In this document: one piece after another, positions 787 through 19,444 of the stretch
Numbering within the stretch: the stretch's first letter is position 1
Layout: each line of letters begins with the position of its first letter
Origin: Vulcanisaeta moutnovskia 768-28
GTDB taxonomy: Archaea; Thermoproteota; Thermoprotei; Thermoproteales; Thermocladiaceae
DNA length: 64,000 nucleotides
Direction: 5' to 3'
NCBI RefSeq assembly: GCF_000190315.1
Contig: NC_015151.1
Location: 744,001-808,000 of the forward strand
Notes under the pieces: model-generated
What the model was told of the DNA's origin: nothing
Databases searched by the model: none
The model's input: only the letters and a program-made list of their open reading frames with translations
Position numbers and translations under genes: made by a program

Positions 787-2037
787 TCAAGTGCATTCTT
801 TACTTATTATGGTACCACTTGGCGTTGATTCCAGGATCATGCCCCTCTTTATGACTATCAAGGCCTTATTCCTGCCTAATTCATAACTTAACCACCTATA
901 ATTAGGTACATCCCAAATAACGATATCTGCTAAGTAACCAGGTTGTAAGATACCCCTGTCTCTGAGGCTGAGACTGTATGCTGCATTGACTGTGGAGGCC
1001 ATTATGACTTCCATGGGTGTCATGCCGAGTAAGTATGTGGCTAGTTCCATTACGTATTGCATGTTTAGGGACCAGGAGTTTGGGCTGAAGTCCGTACCAA
1101 GTGCAATGGGCGCACCTGCGTTCCTTAATGCCTTAACCGGTGGTCTCTTGCTGCTCATTAGTGAGAGTATGGTCACGGGTAATAGGGTCGCTACGGAACC
1201 CCTCTCGGCAATCAATCTTACATTTTGTTCAGGTAGATTCAGTAAGTGATCAAGCGATGCAATACTAAACTCATTAATCAAGTCGCTGCATCCGATATAG
1301 GCTATTTCATCGGCATGAAGCCTAAGCCCAAAGCCTCTTCTTAATGCTTCTTTAAATAAATCCCTGGTCTCCCGTACTGTAAATGCGCCCTCATCACAGA
1401 ATACATCCACAAATTTTGCTAATCCTCTTGCATTGTCGAGGGAGTTTATCACGGCATTAATGTATTCCCTTCTATCCATGTTCCTTGGTGGTACGTGGAC
1501 TAGGTATGTTGGTATGATATCAATGGGTGCATTGACTGATGAATCATTGATTATCCTGAGAAGCCTTATTTCTTGGTCTGGATCAATACCGTAACCATTC
1601 TTAACCTCTATTGTGGTCGTGCCGTACTTCGCAACTTCAAACAACCTAGTAAGGAGTATCCTCCTAAGTTCATCATCCGTTGCACTAACTGTGGCGCTAA
1701 CAGTCCTATAAATACCACCACCCCTCCTAAGTATTTCCTCGTATGGAACACCCTCGAGCTTTAGCTCAAGCTCATCCTCCCTCGAACCAGCAAAGAGTAG
1801 GTGTGTATGTGGATCTACAAGCCCAGTCGTCACCAATGATTCCTCAGCAGGTATTCTACACTTACCCTCATACTTCCTACTTATGGAATCCCACGAACCA
1901 ACATCGGTTATCTTATCACCGTTAACCGCAATACCCGCATTCTCAAGAACTAAGATGGGATCCCCATATCTCCAGGGCATTGACTTAGCCGTGACTAACT
2001 GCCCTATTGGACCAATGAGTAGGGAGACCCTGTCCAT
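787..2037 (-). CDS. hutI: Imidazolonepropionase
   Basis: Hydrolyses 4-imidazolone-5-propionate to N-formimino-L-glutamate, third step of histidine degradation. The 416 residues match the usual length of this amidohydrolase-fold enzyme. Visible metal-site motifs are HTH in DPHTHLLFAG (His77, His79), a conserved His in YLVHVPPR, LHADEI, and the Asp in LGTDFSPN; the C terminus carries the strand typical of composite-domain amidohydrolases. The ATG at 2037 lies about 19 nt from a TATA element shared with gltX on the other strand. hutH, hutU and a hutG candidate lie within 17 kb, which supports imidazolonepropionase over other amidohydrolases. Confidence 0.93.
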   Translation of the reverse strand: MDRVSLLIGPIGQLVTAKSMPWRYGDPILVLENAGIAVNGDKITDVGSWDSISRKYEGKCRIPAEESLVTTGLVDPHTHLLFAGSREDELELKLEGVPYEEILRRGGGIYRTVSATVSATDDELRRILLTRLFEVAKYGTTTIEVKNGYGIDPDQEIRLLRIINDSSVNAPIDIIPTYLVHVPPRNMDRREYINAVINSLDNARGLAKFVDVFCDEGAFTVRETRDLFKEALRRGFGLRLHADEIAYIGCSDLINEFSIASLDHLLNLPEQNVRLIAERGSVATLLPVTILSLMSSKRPPVKALRNAGAPIALGTDFSPNSWSLNMQYVMELATYLLGMTPMEVIMASTVNAAYSLSLRDRGILQPGYLADIVIWDVPNYRWLSYELGRNKALIVIKRGMILESTPSGTIISKECT

Positions 2038-6344: not shown

Positions 6345-7841
6345 ATGGTCGTGGAGATTGGAGCAGGCATGCACCTAACCTTGGATGACATAATCAAGGC
6401 CTCTAGGAATTATGAGGAGGTCAGGGTGGGTAATAATGCCTTGGATGCGATGAAGCGGTCCCGTATGGTTCTTGAGAATTTAATTCATGGTAATGTTAGG
6501 ATTTACGGTGTTAATACGGGACTTGGTGATTTATATAATGTAACTGTTAATCCCGAGGACGTAGCCAAGTACTCACTGGATATGCTTATTGATCACTCAA
6601 TGGGTGTTGGTGATTATGCACCTGATGACTGGGTTCGCGCTACAATGCTTGTTAGGGCCCATCAATTGTCCCTAGGGTACAGTGGTATTAGGAGCATTAT
6701 TGTAGAGAGATTAGTTGATTTTCTTAACATGAGGATAACACCGTTGGTTCCTAAATACGGTTCGGTAGGTGCTTCGGGTGATTTAGCGCCATTAGCGCAT
6801 ATTGCATTAGCCCTACTGGGTAAGGGCTTTGTTAGGTATCAGGGTAGGGTAATGCCCAGTATAGAGGCTCTAAAGTCAATTGGACTTAGTGAGTTAAGCC
6901 TTAGTTATAAGGAGGCTTTATCATTAATTAATGGAACTAGCTACAGTGCTGCAGTGGCTTCGTTGGGTATTTGGGATTCCTATAGGTTATTGAAGGCTGC
7001 ATTAGCGGTTATGGCACTGATGATTGAGGCATCACGAGCTAATATGGCATCGTTAAGTATTGAGGCAAATTCCGCTAAGTTGCATAGTGGTGAAATCGAG
7101 GTTGCGAAGATAATGAGTGAATTATTGAGTGACAGTAAGAATGTGAACACTAGTGGTAGGGTTCAAGACCCATACTCAATAAGGTGTATACCACAGGTCC
7201 TTGGTTCAGTACTTGACGCACTTATTTGGGTCCTACGTAACGTATTGAATGAGGTTAATTCCGTGAGTGATAATCCAATAATTGTTAATAGCGCTGTATT
7301 TTCGACATGTCACTTTCATGGTCAGTATGTGGCCTTATCAACGGACCTGCTCAACATGTCACTGGCTGTACTTGGCAATTTAATTGAGAGGCAGATAGCT
7401 CAATTACTTAGGAGGGAGATCAATGGCATTAATAATTACTTGGCCAATGGTCCTTGGCGTGTTGGCTTAATGCTTGCTCAGTATACTGCCGCGGCATTGG
7501 CAGCCAGGCTTAGGGAGTTATCGACACCATCAACCGTACAGAATATACCAACCAGTGGTTTTCAGGAGGATATTAACTCCATGAGCGCAAACTCAGCGAT
7601 AAAACTTCATGATGTTAACTCAATAATTACGCAATTAATAGCCGCGCTCGCCTACGTCACGTACTCAGTGATTAATGCCAACAATTCATGTTCAACTTGC
7701 GGTAAAGTAACAACACGCATTTATAAAACAATAAGTAAGTACGTGGTTAACGTTCAATCGCATCATGATGCAATAACCAAATTGATGAGTTCAATTGATG
7801 AGCTTTCAGGCATTATTGCCTTGAAGATCAATCCATGGTAG
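6345..7841 (+). CDS. hutH: Histidine ammonia-lyase
   Basis: Deaminates L-histidine to trans-urocanate, first step of the hut pathway. The 498 residues are normal for the family. The Ala143-Ser144-Gly145 triad in GSVGASGDLAPL would cyclise into the MIO cofactor, YGVNTGLGDL (54-63) is the conserved active-site loop, and QDPYSIRC with SDNPI complete the family signature. An aromatic ammonia-lyase with another substrate shares the fold, but hutU and hutI nearby support histidine. ATG 6345 follows an AT-rich element at about 6312-6320; a second Met at codon 9 is possible. The 3' end overlaps convergent rpiA by 14 nt. Confidence 0.93.
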   Translation: MVVEIGAGMHLTLDDIIKASRNYEEVRVGNNALDAMKRSRMVLENLIHGNVRIYGVNTGLGDLYNVTVNPEDVAKYSLDMLIDHSMGVGDYAPDDWVRATMLVRAHQLSLGYSGIRSIIVERLVDFLNMRITPLVPKYGSVGASGDLAPLAHIALALLGKGFVRYQGRVMPSIEALKSIGLSELSLSYKEALSLINGTSYSAAVASLGIWDSYRLLKAALAVMALMIEASRANMASLSIEANSAKLHSGEIEVAKIMSELLSDSKNVNTSGRVQDPYSIRCIPQVLGSVLDALIWVLRNVLNEVNSVSDNPIIVNSAVFSTCHFHGQYVALSTDLLNMSLAVLGNLIERQIAQLLRREINGINNYLANGPWRVGLMLAQYTAAALAARLRELSTPSTVQNIPTSGFQEDINSMSANSAIKLHDVNSIITQLIAALAYVTYSVINANNSCSTCGKVTTRIYKTISKYVVNVQSHHDAITKLMSSIDELSGIIALKINPW

Positions 7842-11767: not shown

Positions 11768-12664
11768 TCATACTTTATGAACCCACACTGCATTAATTAT
11801 TATTGCTGATGCGAGCATGCTCGTCACGTCATTGATGTCGAACGGCGGCGTGACTTCAACGACGTCGAAAACCCTAGGCGTTAATCTAGTGCTTAACTCA
11901 CGGATGAGCCTAATTACCTCCCTTGATGTGAAGCCGCCGGGTGATGGACTATTAACGCCAGGTGCGAAGGCTGGATCAACAACATCAAGGTTAATACTTA
12001 AATGAACAATCCTATTACCAATACTACTCGTAATCTCATTAACCACAGCATTAATACCCATGGAATCAACCTGGTCAATGGTATATATATTGATACCTAA
12101 TTTCCTAGCCTCATTAAATAAGTAGGGTGCGTTTGAGTATGTCCTAACACCGATTATGACTATGTAGGCATTAGGGTCGACATCCTTAATCCACCTAATT
12201 ACTTGCCCACTGGTTAAACCCTCGGTAACGATCCTAACGTCAGGGTGAGCATCAAGCAGTATATATGCTAACCCATCATTAACTACTCTCTTTAAGCCCC
12301 TGAATGCAGCATAGGATGATGTGCTATCACCACCAATCACAACTAACTCCCTAACAAGGCCCAGGGCCTCACTAACAGTCTCCTCAACCCTATGCCAAGT
12401 CTCATTATGATCACCAACAACCACATCAACATCACCAAGATCAATGATCGAAGTATTGCCAAGGATGTACGGTGAGGAGTAAAGCCAGGACCTAACCCTG
12501 GAGGGAGCAAGCCTAGAGCCAGGCCTAGTACCGACAGCCCCATCCCAGGGAACACCGAGAATACCAACATCACCACTAATCCAGCCCCTCCTAACAACCT
12601 CGCCAACCCTAACGTCACTAGGATCCTTAATGAACTTATACATGGGCTCCCTAACAAACCGCAT
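11768..12664 (-). CDS. hutG: Arginase/agmatinase-family ureohydrolase, probable formimidoylglutamase
   Basis: 298 residues with the ureohydrolase fold. In this neighbourhood the best guess is formimidoylglutamase, which splits N-formiminoglutamate into glutamate and formamide, last step of the short hut pathway; agmatinase or another guanidino hydrolase is the alternative. Motif 1 reads GGDST (112-116) where Mn enzymes have GGDH, so one ligand His is Ser114. Motif 2, DAHPD (138-142), is intact. Motif 3 reads SINLDVVDPAFAPG (223-236), with Asn225 where the first ligand Asp is expected and Asp227 kept. Two of six usual metal ligands are therefore changed, both on the first metal site. Confidence 0.7.
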   Translation of the reverse strand: MRFVREPMYKFIKDPSDVRVGEVVRRGWISGDVGILGVPWDGAVGTRPGSRLAPSRVRSWLYSSPYILGNTSIIDLGDVDVVVGDHNETWHRVEETVSEALGLVRELVVIGGDSTSSYAAFRGLKRVVNDGLAYILLDAHPDVRIVTEGLTSGQVIRWIKDVDPNAYIVIIGVRTYSNAPYLFNEARKLGINIYTIDQVDSMGINAVVNEITSSIGNRIVHLSINLDVVDPAFAPGVNSPSPGGFTSREVIRLIRELSTRLTPRVFDVVEVTPPFDINDVTSMLASAIIINAVWVHKV

Positions 12665-13528: not shown

Positions 13529-15064
13529 TTGCGTAATGCAATAAGTCTTATTTTTGACAATTACAAGGATATGCCGATAAATATGGCAACCCAAGCAGCA
13601 GCAAAGATTGACTGGTCGTCACTATGGAAGAAAGAGGACTGGTGGGCACTTTGGATCGGACTTCTCATTTTTCTCTTATCATTACCTGGTTATTATGGTA
13701 TTTACCTACTTGGTTGGGTTCCCAGGGTCTCGGCACCGTGGTTAAATCCTTCAAAGAGTATTGTGGTTGTTGGGCAAGCGTTGACAATGACTAAGGCATA
13801 CCTGGGTTTAAATCCACTGCTTAGCGTGATCCTGCTCTACCTATTCCTGCTGGCGATCCTCACGTTCGCGGCTTGGTCAATGGGACATAACGTTAAGAGA
13901 TTCATGGCTAGCTTCACAATAATGTTCATTCTAACATTCGGTTTCTGGTGGCTCTTTGGCTATGCATACTTTAACGCTACACCTGACCAATATGCTAAGC
14001 TTCACATTACTTGGTCAATACCCGTGGGAGCAGACGGTATACTAATATACCTACTACTCATAGGCTTATTTATATCCAATGTAATATTCTACAAGAAATT
14101 ACCGGCGGTTCTAGAAACCGGTGCTAGAACCGAGTGGTACATAAAGACCGCAATAGTTCTTCTTGGGGCCTTGATTGGGGCATCATCTCTCAGATACATA
14201 ACGCTGGCTGTGGGTCTTGTGGAGAGATCGTTAATAGCCATAGTCGCCGCCTACCTAATCTACTGGCCAATCTCATACCTAGTATCCCATAAGGTGTTTA
14301 AATTAGATAATAAGTGGGCAGCAACACTGGCATCAGGCGTTAGTATATGCGGTGTATCGGCGGCCATAGCCACAGCCGCAGCAATAGGCGCCCCATCAAT
14401 AGTGCCAGCTACCATTGCATCAATAATTGTGCTATTCGCAGCCGTAGAATTAGTGGTACTACCATTCGCAGCTGCCACGTTCCTAAAGTGGGCACCATAT
14501 GCGGCTGGTGCCTGGATGGGCCTATCCGTTAAGACCGATGGTGCAGCTGCAGCCAGCGGCGCTTTGACTGATGCCCTGATTAGTGCTCAGCCAGGCCTTG
14601 CTGCCTATAAGACCTGGGTATTGACAACGGCAGTCATGAATAAGGTATTCATTGATATATGGATTGGACTATGGGCATTCATACTGGCTGTGATATGGGT
14701 GACCAAAGTTGAAAGAAGACCTGGAGAAAGAGTTCCCATGATTCAGATTTGGTTTAGGTTCCCCAAGTTTGTGCTTGGTTACCTGGCTACATGGTTAATA
14801 CTATGGGGTGTTGGTTTCGCAGTTGGCGCTGCCGTATCGTGGAAATTCATGACCGGCGGCATAACGCCACAAACAGAGTTATTTAGGTACTTCTTCTTCG
14901 CCCTAACCTTCATGTCAATAGGGCTAACGACCAGGTTCAAGACACTCGCTGAGATAAAGGCTGGGCGTATGATAGCTGCATACGTAGTATCACTAACAAT
15001 CATAATACTGATAGCCCTAGGCCTATCAATAGCCTTCTTCGCAGGCTTACCACCACCTAAATGA
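13529..15064 (+). CDS. Putative sulfate/sulfite exporter family protein (UPF0324/YeiH type)
   Basis: A polytopic membrane protein of about 510 residues with 11-13 hydrophobic segments. The stretches LASGVSICGVSAAIATAAA and GAWMGLSVKTDGAAAASGAL match the two signature helices of the UPF0324 family. It probably exports an anionic sulfur compound, but no substrate has been shown for the family at large. Start choice is open: TTG 13529 is 28 nt from the first base of tttaaatatt (13501), consistent with a leaderless message, while ATG 13571 or 13583 gives a more ordinary N terminus. Confidence 0.75.
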   Translation: MRNAISLIFDNYKDMPINMATQAAAKIDWSSLWKKEDWWALWIGLLIFLLSLPGYYGIYLLGWVPRVSAPWLNPSKSIVVVGQALTMTKAYLGLNPLLSVILLYLFLLAILTFAAWSMGHNVKRFMASFTIMFILTFGFWWLFGYAYFNATPDQYAKLHITWSIPVGADGILIYLLLIGLFISNVIFYKKLPAVLETGARTEWYIKTAIVLLGALIGASSLRYITLAVGLVERSLIAIVAAYLIYWPISYLVSHKVFKLDNKWAATLASGVSICGVSAAIATAAAIGAPSIVPATIASIIVLFAAVELVVLPFAAATFLKWAPYAAGAWMGLSVKTDGAAAASGALTDALISAQPGLAAYKTWVLTTAVMNKVFIDIWIGLWAFILAVIWVTKVERRPGERVPMIQIWFRFPKFVLGYLATWLILWGVGFAVGAAVSWKFMTGGITPQTELFRYFFFALTFMSIGLTTRFKTLAEIKAGRMIAAYVVSLTIIILIALGLSIAFFAGLPPPK

Positions 15065-15123
15065 GGTGATGAGTAATAACGAACTTCAAAATTAAAATTA
15101 ATAATTTCGATTCCTCTCCACGA

Positions 15124-16146
15124 GTGGCGCAGATCGAGGTATCAACTTCATGCAATGCATCATGCATTTACTGTCCAAGAACGGTACTGAGGAGTGATTG
15201 GATTTCTAAATTCATGAACCTGAGATTATATCGTAAAGTAATAGGGGAATTACTAAGCATGGGGTCAATAAATTACGTACATTTACAAGGGTGGGGTGAA
15301 CCATTACTACATCCAAACTTTATGGACATGATCGGTGAGATTCGGGGTAAGGTTGACTTTGGTCTCACGACAAATGGATTATTACTAAATGAACACTATG
15401 CGAGTAAGTTGGTCTCCTTAGGTATTAACGTTATAGCGGTAACTTTCGCAGGAGCCAATGCACTAACGCACAACGTTATAAGGGTTGGGTGTGATTTTAA
15501 CGTGGTCGTTAATAACGTAAAGAGACTTATTGAGACGAGAAATAAGTTAAGAAGTGGTGTCAGAGTGGTAGCGAGTTTTATCGCATTGTCGATGAATATC
15601 CATGAACTACCAGACTTTGTCTATTTATGCCATAAGTTAGGCATTGATGAGATAGTCATCGACAACTTATCATATATACTAAATAAGTACATGCTTAGAT
15701 GGAGAGCTTTTACGGACCCTATGGAACAGGAATTAAGAGTCTTTAAACGCGTGATTGATATTACGTTAAGGAGGGCTAAGGAGTTGGGTATTAAGGTGTT
15801 TCCTTACTCATTAAGTTGTTGGGAATTGATTGAATGCCCGGAAAGACCTACTGAGACTATATTCATAGGCGTAAATGGTGACGTTTCCCCATGTGTCTTT
15901 CTAAACCTACCAACCAGGGGCGATAGCATACCGCGGTGCTTCATGGGCAAGTGCTTCAGGGTAGAAAAAACAATCTTCGGAAATGCAGATAAGGATAATA
16001 TCATTAATATATGGAATGATGAGGACTATAAGGAATTTAGGTATAGGTTCATAAGAAGAAGATCTCAAGGACCTAACTGGGAGTATGGTATTGACTTAAT
16101 GCCGCCTAGCCAATGCATCACGTGTTATAGGTTATATGGTGTTTGA
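15124..16146 (+). CDS. Radical SAM protein with SPASM-like C-terminal cysteines
   Basis: 340 residues. CNASCIYC (CxxxCxxC) at residues 10-17 ligates the SAM-cleaving 4Fe-4S cluster, the GE-type strand follows as HLQGWGEPLLHP, and TTNGLLLNE and the TIM-barrel strands are recognisable. The C-terminal third carries CWELIEC, CVFL, CFMGKCF and CITC, suggesting auxiliary clusters as in SPASM enzymes that modify peptides or other substrates. The substrate is unknown. GTG 15124 is the only standard start; the frame is open upstream to 15073 without one, so the N terminus may be longer. It follows the exporter gene by 60 nt. Confidence 0.78.
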   Translation: MAQIEVSTSCNASCIYCPRTVLRSDWISKFMNLRLYRKVIGELLSMGSINYVHLQGWGEPLLHPNFMDMIGEIRGKVDFGLTTNGLLLNEHYASKLVSLGINVIAVTFAGANALTHNVIRVGCDFNVVVNNVKRLIETRNKLRSGVRVVASFIALSMNIHELPDFVYLCHKLGIDEIVIDNLSYILNKYMLRWRAFTDPMEQELRVFKRVIDITLRRAKELGIKVFPYSLSCWELIECPERPTETIFIGVNGDVSPCVFLNLPTRGDSIPRCFMGKCFRVEKTIFGNADKDNIINIWNDEDYKEFRYRFIRRRSQGPNWEYGIDLMPPSQCITCYRLYGV

Positions 16147-16346: not shown

Positions 16347-17533
16347 ATGAAGTATTTAAGGCATAGCGTGAAAAATAGCTCAATGAGTAAGTGTAAAATA
16401 TGTGGCAGGGATTGGCTGGTCTCAGAAGCCTTAGGCGTTTGTGTTAACTGCATTAGGAGTAGGCGCGAAGATGCTCTTAACATAGTGAGGAGAAATAGGC
16501 AATTATGGAGGGTCAGGCTTGGTTTAGAAACGGAGCCACCAAAGGATGGATCAGTTAATTGTCACCTGTGTGTCAACGAGTGCCGTATATCTAAGGGCTC
16601 GAGGGGCTTCTGCGGTGTTTGGATTAACGATGGAAGGTTAAGGCCCTTGGGTGGTGAAGGCAAGCTAATCTTAATGACCTACCTTGATCCATTACCAACC
16701 AATTGCGTAGCGACACCTGTATGCCCAGCGGTGGGCTGGGGCTACCCTGAATATTCATTATCAAGGCATGGCGAGTATAGTTACTACAACCTGGCAGTAT
16801 TTATGGGCGGTTGTGAACTTGACTGCGCGTTTTGTCAGAATTACGAACATAAGGTCTGGATAGCCCATGGTAAAGTGAGCGGTCTATTAAGAGTTACAAC
16901 CCTTGATGAGTTGGTTAGGGGAGGCTTTGAACCCGAGGATTACCTGCGTTTGTTACTTTGGAGGTGATCCAACGCCGCAATCGCCGTTATTAGTATTAAC
17001 TTCACGAAAGATATTCAATGAGGCCTTAAAGCATGGTCAACAACCCAAGAGAATTTGTTGGGAGACTAATGGTCTCGCGAATCCCTTAATCATGAGGGAG
17101 ATGGCTAAGTTAAGTCTCATCTCTGGTGGAATTATTAAGATTGATTGGAAGGCTTGGAATCCAGGTGTTTATGAAGCGCTGACAGGAGTTAATGGTGAGA
17201 AGGCAATTAAAAGCTCATGAAAAACACCGATTTAGTAGCTAAGATGGCCCGTGAAAGACCCGACCCGCCATTACCCGTCGTAAGCATTCTATTGGTTCCG
17301 AGCTACATCGATGCTGAGAAGGTTAGGGGATTGCTAGTTACGTATCATCGCTGGCTAGTAAGTATGATGTTAATATACCCATTGTGTTATTGGCATTTCA
17401 CCCAGACCATTTAATGAGGGATTTGCCGCCAACGAATATGCGTCATATGAATGAGGCAGTGAGAATTGTTAAGGAGGTGGGTATTAAGGAGGTTTACATA
17501 GGCAATGAGTGGCTGTTGGGCACGTATTATTAA
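16347..17533 (+). pseudogene. Radical SAM protein pseudogene (PflX / AmmeMemoRadiSam type), three frameshifts
   Basis: The remains of a roughly 390-residue activating-enzyme-like radical SAM protein: an N-terminal CKICG zinc-ribbon-like part, CHLCVNECRISKGSRGFCG, the cluster motif CELDCAFCQNYEH, CVCYFGGDPTPQ and a C-terminal HLMRDLPPTN block. The frame is broken three times: an extra G in the gggg run near 16918, a missing A in the aaaa run near 17209, and a missing base near 17340. Each shift joins two segments that read as one protein. The last frame ends at TAA 17531-17533. All three breaks are single-base, so sequencing error is possible, but no other gene nearby of similar length shows this. 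Confidence 0.75.
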
Positions 17534-17581: not shown

Positions 17582-19444
17582 ATGTCTGTTCCTCAAAAGT
17601 ACAGGGGCAGACCTATTGAGGAGTTGATCTCGGCTGGTTATTATGATCCTGAGACTAGGACTGTTCACGTCATCACAGGCACGGAGCTTCACGTACATAG
17701 CCGTGACTGGCAGCTTGAGGGTCCGCTGCGGATGCTTTTTCATGTGCTTGACCCTGCGGTGGCTAAGGACCCGAAGAACCTAATTGTGTACGGTGGTACT
17801 GGCAAGGCTGCGCGCTCGTGGGATGACTTCGAGGCTATTGTAGACTCATTACTAACGATGGATAGTGAGGACACGCTGGTCATACAGAGTGGGCAGCCCG
17901 TGGCCATTTGGAAGCTCGGTAAGCACGCGCCGAGGGTCTTAATGAGCAATGCAATGCTAGTCCCCAAGTGGGCTGATTGGAAGATATTTTGGGAGCTCGA
18001 GGCCAAGGGATTGATAAGCTTTCACCAGATGACGGCTGGCTGCTGGGCATACATCGGCACCCAGGGCATTCTCCAGGGGACTTATGAAACGATTGGGGCG
18101 GCTGCGGATAGGCACTTTGGCGGCTCGCTCGAGGGTAGGTTAGTGGTTAGCGCTGGGCTTGGCAACATGGGTGGTGCACAGCCGCTGGCCATTAAAATGC
18201 TTGGTGGTGTGGCCTTGATAGCTGATGTTGATAAGAGGATGATACAGAGGATGATAGACACAGGCTACCTTGACACGTGGACGGATAACCTGGACAAGGC
18301 CATAGACATGGCACTCGACGCCAAGGAGAGGCGGCAGGCAACGAGTATTGGCGTTCTCGCCAATGCGGTAGATCTACTTGAGAAGTTGGTTAAGGAGAAC
18401 ATAGTCCCCGACATACTCACAGACCAGACGCCCGCCCACGACCCATTATCCTATGTACCCCAGGGACTTACTGTAGAGCAGGCTGAGCAGTTAAGGAGGA
18501 GTGATCCGGAGAAATACATACTATTGGCTAAGGAGACCATGAAGAAGCACGTGCAATTAATGCTTCAGTTACAGGCTAGGGGTGCCGTAACCTTCGAGTA
18601 CGGCAACAACCTCAGGAAGCAGGCATACGATGCTGGTGTTGAGGACGCATTCAAGATACCCGGGCAGATGGAGTACATGAGACCATTGTTTGAGGAGGGT
18701 CGTGGACCATTCAGGTGGACAAGCCTAGTCGGTGATCCAAACGACATATACAAGTTGGACGACGTATTAATAACGCTCTTCGAGAAGAAGAACCCAAGGC
18801 TAGTCAGATGGATCAAGAATGCCCGCCAGTACGTAAAGTTCCAGGGACTACCCGCCAGGGTAGTTTACTTAGGCTATGGAGAGAGGGCTTTGTTTGGCAA
18901 GATCGTTAGTGAGATGGTTAGGAAAGGCGAGCTAAGCGGGCCAATATGGTTTGGCAGAGACCACCTGGATAGTGGTTCTGTAGCATCGCCATTTAGGGAG
19001 ACCGAGGGAATGCTCGACGGCTCAGACGCAATTGGGGACTGGCCAATACTAAACTACGCACTTAACACGGCAGCCGGCGCAACCTGGACATGCTTCCACC
19101 ACGGTGGCGGTGTTGGTATTGGCTACTCCATCCATGCTGGTTTTGGCATGGTTGTTGACGGTACCGAGCTTGCTGAGGAAAAGGCCCTTAGGGTCTTCAC
19201 CGTTGATCCAGGAAGTGGTGTCGTTAGGCATGCACATGCTGGCTATCCGAAATCCCTAATGGTCGCTAGGGAGAAGGGTATTAGAATACCAATCATTGAT
19301 AGGCTTGAGGAGAAGAGTAAGCGCGTGATTGAGGAGGCGTATAAGGAGGGTAGGATTAGTAAGTTCACGTATGACAGGGTCAAGAAGGACCTTCAGGAGT
19401 ATGAAGCTAGGAAACAGAACTACAGAACACCATTCAATACTTAA
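17582..19444 (+). CDS. hutU: Urocanate hydratase
   Basis: Adds water to urocanate to form imidazolonepropionate, second step of histidine degradation, using tightly bound NAD+ as an electrophile. At 620 residues this is a long-form urocanase; bacterial ones are near 555. VYGGTGKAARSW, TAGCWAYIGTQGILQGTYET, the NAD loop SAGLGNMGGAQPLAIKMLGG (190-209), GPFRWTSLVGDP and FHHGGGVGIGYSIHAG are family signatures. Where bacterial enzymes read FCxGxGPFRW, this one has Glu371 in place of the reactive Cys. By eye the gene is richer in G+C than its neighbours, and it lies between degraded genes. ATG 17582 follows an AT-rich element. Confidence 0.93.
   Translation: MSVPQKYRGRPIEELISAGYYDPETRTVHVITGTELHVHSRDWQLEGPLRMLFHVLDPAVAKDPKNLIVYGGTGKAARSWDDFEAIVDSLLTMDSEDTLVIQSGQPVAIWKLGKHAPRVLMSNAMLVPKWADWKIFWELEAKGLISFHQMTAGCWAYIGTQGILQGTYETIGAAADRHFGGSLEGRLVVSAGLGNMGGAQPLAIKMLGGVALIADVDKRMIQRMIDTGYLDTWTDNLDKAIDMALDAKERRQATSIGVLANAVDLLEKLVKENIVPDILTDQTPAHDPLSYVPQGLTVEQAEQLRRSDPEKYILLAKETMKKHVQLMLQLQARGAVTFEYGNNLRKQAYDAGVEDAFKIPGQMEYMRPLFEEGRGPFRWTSLVGDPNDIYKLDDVLITLFEKKNPRLVRWIKNARQYVKFQGLPARVVYLGYGERALFGKIVSEMVRKGELSGPIWFGRDHLDSGSVASPFRETEGMLDGSDAIGDWPILNYALNTAAGATWTCFHHGGGVGIGYSIHAGFGMVVDGTELAEEKALRVFTVDPGSGVVRHAHAGYPKSLMVAREKGIRIPIIDRLEEKSKRVIEEAYKEGRISKFTYDRVKKDLQEYEARKQNYRTPFNT

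Follow-up and report, generated by a model that had tools for sequence, protein, structure and literature searches.

A formimidoylglutamase candidate of Vulcanisaeta moutnovskia that lacks two of the six ureohydrolase metal ligands

Ureohydrolases and histone deacetylases (HDACs) share one fold, with two metals in the former and one metal in the latter. In ureohydrolases, two ligands are specific to metal A (the His of the GGDH motif and the final Asp of DxHxD) and two to metal B (the DxHxD His and the final Asp of SxDxD); the other two ligand Asp residues bind both metals (PMC10028609). HDACs conserve the MnB site of arginases as their Zn site (PMC5454378). The arginase of Z. mobilis has Cys at the His position (GGDCL) and has been shown by experiment to keep two metals and Mn-dependent activity (PMC6988801), Asn can stabilize binuclear centers (PMC7313459), and both noncanonical ureohydrolases without a binuclear center and a pseudoenzyme-enzyme pair exist (PMC11271267). 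A search of the literature for Vulcanisaeta hut genes or mononuclear ureohydrolases returned nothing relevant.

We analyzed a 64,000-nucleotide stretch of Vulcanisaeta moutnovskia 768-28 (here called the window; NC_015151.1, positions 744,001 to 808,000), the source genome of which is a single contig of 2,298,983 bases. A HutG homologue and formimidoylglutamase candidate is encoded at window positions 11768 to 12664. The preliminary description of this DNA had placed the gene correctly, and the open reading frame sits on the minus strand.

Metal ligands of the window HutG

The 298-residue product of this open reading frame matched a single Pfam family, Arginase (PF00491; E=1e-61), with residues 32 to 292 aligned to profile positions 2 to 277 of 280. 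This full-length match places the protein in the ureohydrolase superfamily and not, by sequence, in the histone deacetylase family. Its motifs read GGDST (residues 111 to 115), DAHPD (138 to 142), and SINLD (223 to 227). In the multiple alignment, four of the six canonical ligands are left (D138, H140, D142, and D227); Ser114 (AGC codon, positions 12323 to 12325, minus strand) stands in place of the canonical His, a position at which many HutG proteins have Asn, and Asn225 (AAC codon, positions 11990 to 11992, minus strand) stands in place of the bridging Asp. The active-site Glu, E270, is conserved. The preliminary description, which had proposed a HutG candidate without two of the six ligands and with DAHPD intact, is borne out, and both replacements recur in all ten complete orthologues. 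It had also assigned both losses to the first metal, which holds in part. Mapped onto the metal contacts described above (PMC10028609), site A loses two of its four ligands in all ten orthologues and retains D138 and D142, but the bridging Asp binds both metals, so site B is touched too; the metal-B set of D138, H140, and D227 is kept. Possession of four of the six ligands does not expel the protein from the superfamily; other ureohydrolases also depart from the set.

Among 55 aligned ureohydrolases, a survey of limited size with a bias toward archaea, the ligand string was H-D-H-D-D-D in 34, N-D-H-D-D-D in 9, H-D-H-D-C-D in 2, and S-D-H-D-N-D in 10, including the window protein. Loss of the His ligand alone is ordinary for HutG, because Asn occupies that position in the B. 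subtilis enzyme (3m1r), in haloarchaeal hutG, in an Acidobacteria hutG, and in the T. cruzi formiminoglutamase (GGGND in the native 4mxr sequence versus GGGHD in 4myn). The unusual step is the change of the bridging Asp to Asn, which among the aligned sequences is confined to the clade of the window protein. The alignment with other ureohydrolases that had been proposed as a check for residues restoring the lost ligands turned up no replacement ligand, and the multiple alignment contained no clade-specific Asp, Glu, His, or Cys near the metal site. An apparently independent GGDS in loci L070 and L071 was a local-alignment artifact; the multiple alignment reads GGDHS. In the Xanthomonas citri plasmid hutG (L096:2659-3594 and L104:577-1536), Cys is found at the position of the bridging Asp (TLCLD) and the other ligands are canonical.

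Window HutG has its fold, its surrounding pathway genes, and DAHxD in common with the HutG family (TIGR01227; B. subtilis 3m1r, T. cruzi 4mxr), several members of which have also lost the His ligand (to Asn), and it conserves the HutG positions R144, S152-G153, and N178. Unlike that family, it has Ser, rather than Asn or His, at position 114 and Asn for the bridging Asp at position 225. Structure prediction, which covered seven sequences, yielded a metal-free AlphaFold model with a confident ureohydrolase fold beyond the first 28 residues (mean pLDDT 80, pTM 0.82); the closest structures were proclavaminate amidinohydrolase and B. subtilis formimidoylglutamase (3m1r, TM 0.83). Proclavaminate amidinohydrolase (1gq6), which is also the closest solved sequence, and agmatinases share the superfamily fold; unlike window HutG, they have six canonical ligands in the aligned sequences and no link to hut genes. 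HDACs and acetylpolyamine amidohydrolases have the arginase-deacetylase fold in common with window HutG, and its surviving Asp-x-His plus Asp (D138, H140, and D227) correspond to the HDAC Zn ligands, beside a reduced site A. This likeness is one of the metal site only, whereas the sequence is plainly that of a ureohydrolase and keeps DAHxD, including D142.

Clade-fixed columns that differ from the two nearest sister groups include T46, S50, S114, T115, Q154, V155, A179, P180, N225, and N278, which together suggest, at the level of the alignment, a concerted remodeling of the active site; Y118, W158, and M283 are likewise clade fixed. By homology, several of the clade-specific columns belong to motifs lining the active site, and none of them supplies a strong metal ligand.

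Conservation, descent, and selection

Ser114 and Asn225 were present in 10 of 10 complete orthologues from Vulcanisaeta and sister genus g2. In the tree, these orthologues were monophyletic (support 100/100), lay inside Thermoproteota HutG (98/94), and stood apart from the agmatinase-like paralogues. Their neighbors were three genomes with Asn/Asp (G012 to G014), followed by two with His/Asp (G028 and G031). With a tree built without the two trait columns, at least four changes were needed at position 114 and two at position 225. Asn to Ser and Asp to Asn each take one transition, in agreement with the order H/D to N/D to S/N; its direction is read from tree position.

The ratio of nonsynonymous to synonymous substitution (dN/dS) between window hutG and its orthologues was 0.06 to 0.20, within or somewhat above the range for hutH (0.08 to 0.10). 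Synonymous codons vary at both sites (AGC/AGT for Ser114, AAC/AAT for Asn225), and D142, the site-B ligands, and E270 are invariant, D142 in all ten orthologues. The double ligand loss is real, common to the clade, and maintained by selection. Sequencing error, chance, and a pseudogene were ruled out as explanations: ten complete orthologues agree, synonymous codons vary, and dN/dS is low. The loci of genomes G016, G017, and G020 (L045, L046, and L050) have frameshifts that extend to many neighboring genes and look like assembly faults, not gene decay.

Readings of the altered metal site

We give close to an even chance to the reading that window HutG is an active formimidoylglutamase that relies on the metal of site B for catalysis and has a site A that is vacant or only weakly occupied. 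It would convert N-formimino-glutamate to glutamate and formamide as the last step of histidine degradation by an archaeal hut pathway. D138, H140, and D227 would hold the site-B metal in a set equivalent to the HDAC Zn site, and D142, a metal-A-only ligand in canonical enzymes, would orient or deprotonate the metal-bound water. From an ancestor with normal H/D ligands, the lineage would have acquired Asn/Asp, the state in which a sister genus is still found, and then Ser/Asn, the latter through two single-base transitions (AAY to AGY and GAY to AAY). Catalysis at site B is preferred because the HDAC-type set is kept exactly, while half of site A is lost. The strongest counterevidence to a site-B-only enzyme is the invariance of D142, a residue that should have been able to vary had site A been given up. 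D142 may serve in addition to hold the nucleophilic water, or a metal may still occupy site A via the Ser and Asn oxygens. Both Ser and Asn can bind metals, which counts against an empty site A.

Should catalysis rest on site B, window HutG may show how a two-metal enzyme works with one full metal site. More tentatively, and somewhat short of an even chance, we propose that in this clade of hyperthermophilic archaea a small number of single-base substitutions turned a binuclear ureohydrolase into an active mononuclear hydrolase with an HDAC-like metal site, and that a sister genus preserves the N/D intermediate to this day. A formimidoylglutamase with deacetylase-type ligands and with relatives at the H/D and N/D stages would make the step from two metals to one directly testable. 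Annotation by ligand motifs would wrongly label such a pathway enzyme dead.

A serious possibility, if one well short of even, is an active formimidoylglutamase that still holds two metals, in which D138 and D142 are joined at site A by S114 and N225 as neutral oxygen ligands and the second metal is bound more weakly or is a different one. The invariance of D142 would be expected of such an enzyme, and the native T. cruzi formiminoglutamase (4mxr) already has Asn in place of His; Hai et al. 2013 reportedly described for this enzyme a binuclear Mn cluster that includes N114 among its ligands. The Z. mobilis arginase, like window HutG, has a residue other than His at the first metal-A ligand and still holds two metals; unlike window HutG, it keeps the bridging Asp. 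The ability of Asn to stabilize binuclear centers counts in the same direction. We found no precedent, however, for loss of both the His ligand and the carboxylate of the bridging Asp. With one carboxylate charge removed, a second divalent ion should bind less tightly, and Ser is a poor neutral donor.

An unlikely alternative is that the protein is a catalytically dead ureohydrolase serving as partner or regulator of another ureohydrolase subunit, like MetCb for MetCa in metformin hydrolase. Loss of canonical ligands is common to window HutG and the pseudo-ureohydrolases (MetCb; the T. brucei arginase-like protein), and the precedents noted above (PMC11271267) favor a dead subunit. So does a third arginase-family paralogue with canonical ligands, present in G000 (L054) and some relatives, among them G025, where it lies ~3 kb from hutG (L041:13284-14243), and elsewhere distant or absent. 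Nevertheless, this paralogue was not found in the complete genomes G015, G018, and G002, and genomes that have no hut genes also carry the agmatinase-like paralogue, which is ubiquitous. A MetCb-like protein would combine loss of metal binding with an obligatory active paralogue; in window HutG, site B is intact with ligands that, like E270, do not vary, and no obligatory active partner accompanies it in every genome. The lack of a constant partner makes a dead subunit less likely, and no other formiminoglutamate enzyme was found. Less probable still is that the protein is not the pathway HutG and actively hydrolyzes some other guanidino or formimino compound. A score below the hutG equivalog cutoff and active-site loops that differ from those of the sister genus could be so read, but tree position, the operon setting, and the joint occurrence of the gene with hutI and hutU all favor a role in the hut pathway, and the distribution of formamidase homologues (see below) lies in the expected direction, a weak argument confounded by descent. 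A different substrate geometry, raised in the preliminary description, is disfavored, since the protein retains the positions conserved across HutG as well as its hut context.

The hut pathway around hutG

The window encodes hutI (imidazolonepropionase; positions 787 to 2037, minus strand), which scores over the TIGR01224 cutoff and has the HTH and HAD metal motifs, hutH (histidine ammonia-lyase; 6345 to 7841, plus strand), whose best NCBIfam families are HutH, below cutoff, and which has the Ala-Ser-Gly triad, and hutU (urocanate hydratase; 17582 to 19444, plus strand), over cutoff with 771 bits. Relatives have the genes syntenic or gathered in compact hut operons. Gene order in a sister genus is hutU-hutG-hutH-hutI, and in G028 and G031, from another family of the order, hutI-hutH-hutG adjoins hutU. 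Across 45 genomes of the order, hutG and hutU occur together in 17, hutG occurs without a found hutU in two, both incomplete, and hutU never occurs without hutG.

FTCD was not found in any of these 45 genomes, neither FTCD_N nor N-formylglutamate deformylase (FGase) was found in the source genome, and no second HutG was found. In the complete genomes G015, G018, and G002, just two ureohydrolases were detected, HutG and the agmatinase-like paralogue. Because alternative enzymes were not found and complete genomes have these two ureohydrolases, window HutG is the only good candidate for formiminoglutamate cleavage. TIGR01227 is its best family, at 158.5 bits, below the equivalog cutoff of 229.15; the crenarchaeal HutG proteins with canonical ligands that were tested also score below this cutoff. 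The earlier assignment to HutG is supported by gene neighborhood, co-occurrence, the failure to find an alternative enzyme, and tree position. Homologues of the FmdA/AmdA formamidases were found in 7 of 19 hut genomes versus 1 of 26 others (one-sided Fisher p 0.006, kinship ignored; in G015 the match covers a short fragment), which hints weakly, given the confounding by descent, that the product is formamide.

Between hutG and hutU, at window positions 13529 to 16146, most Vulcanisaeta genomes encode a PF03601 (YeiH-like) membrane protein and a radical SAM/SPASM protein, the latter, in the window, close to tungsten-cofactor maturases. Two overlapping open reading frames in different frames at positions 16347 to 17220 appear to be a single radical-SAM-related gene interrupted by a frameshift. 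In loci L070 and L071 (genomes G299 and G281), hutU is ~82% identical to window hutU and the adjoining hutG ~35%, while the hutU of related genomes is ~61% identical, which suggests that hutU alone was transferred.
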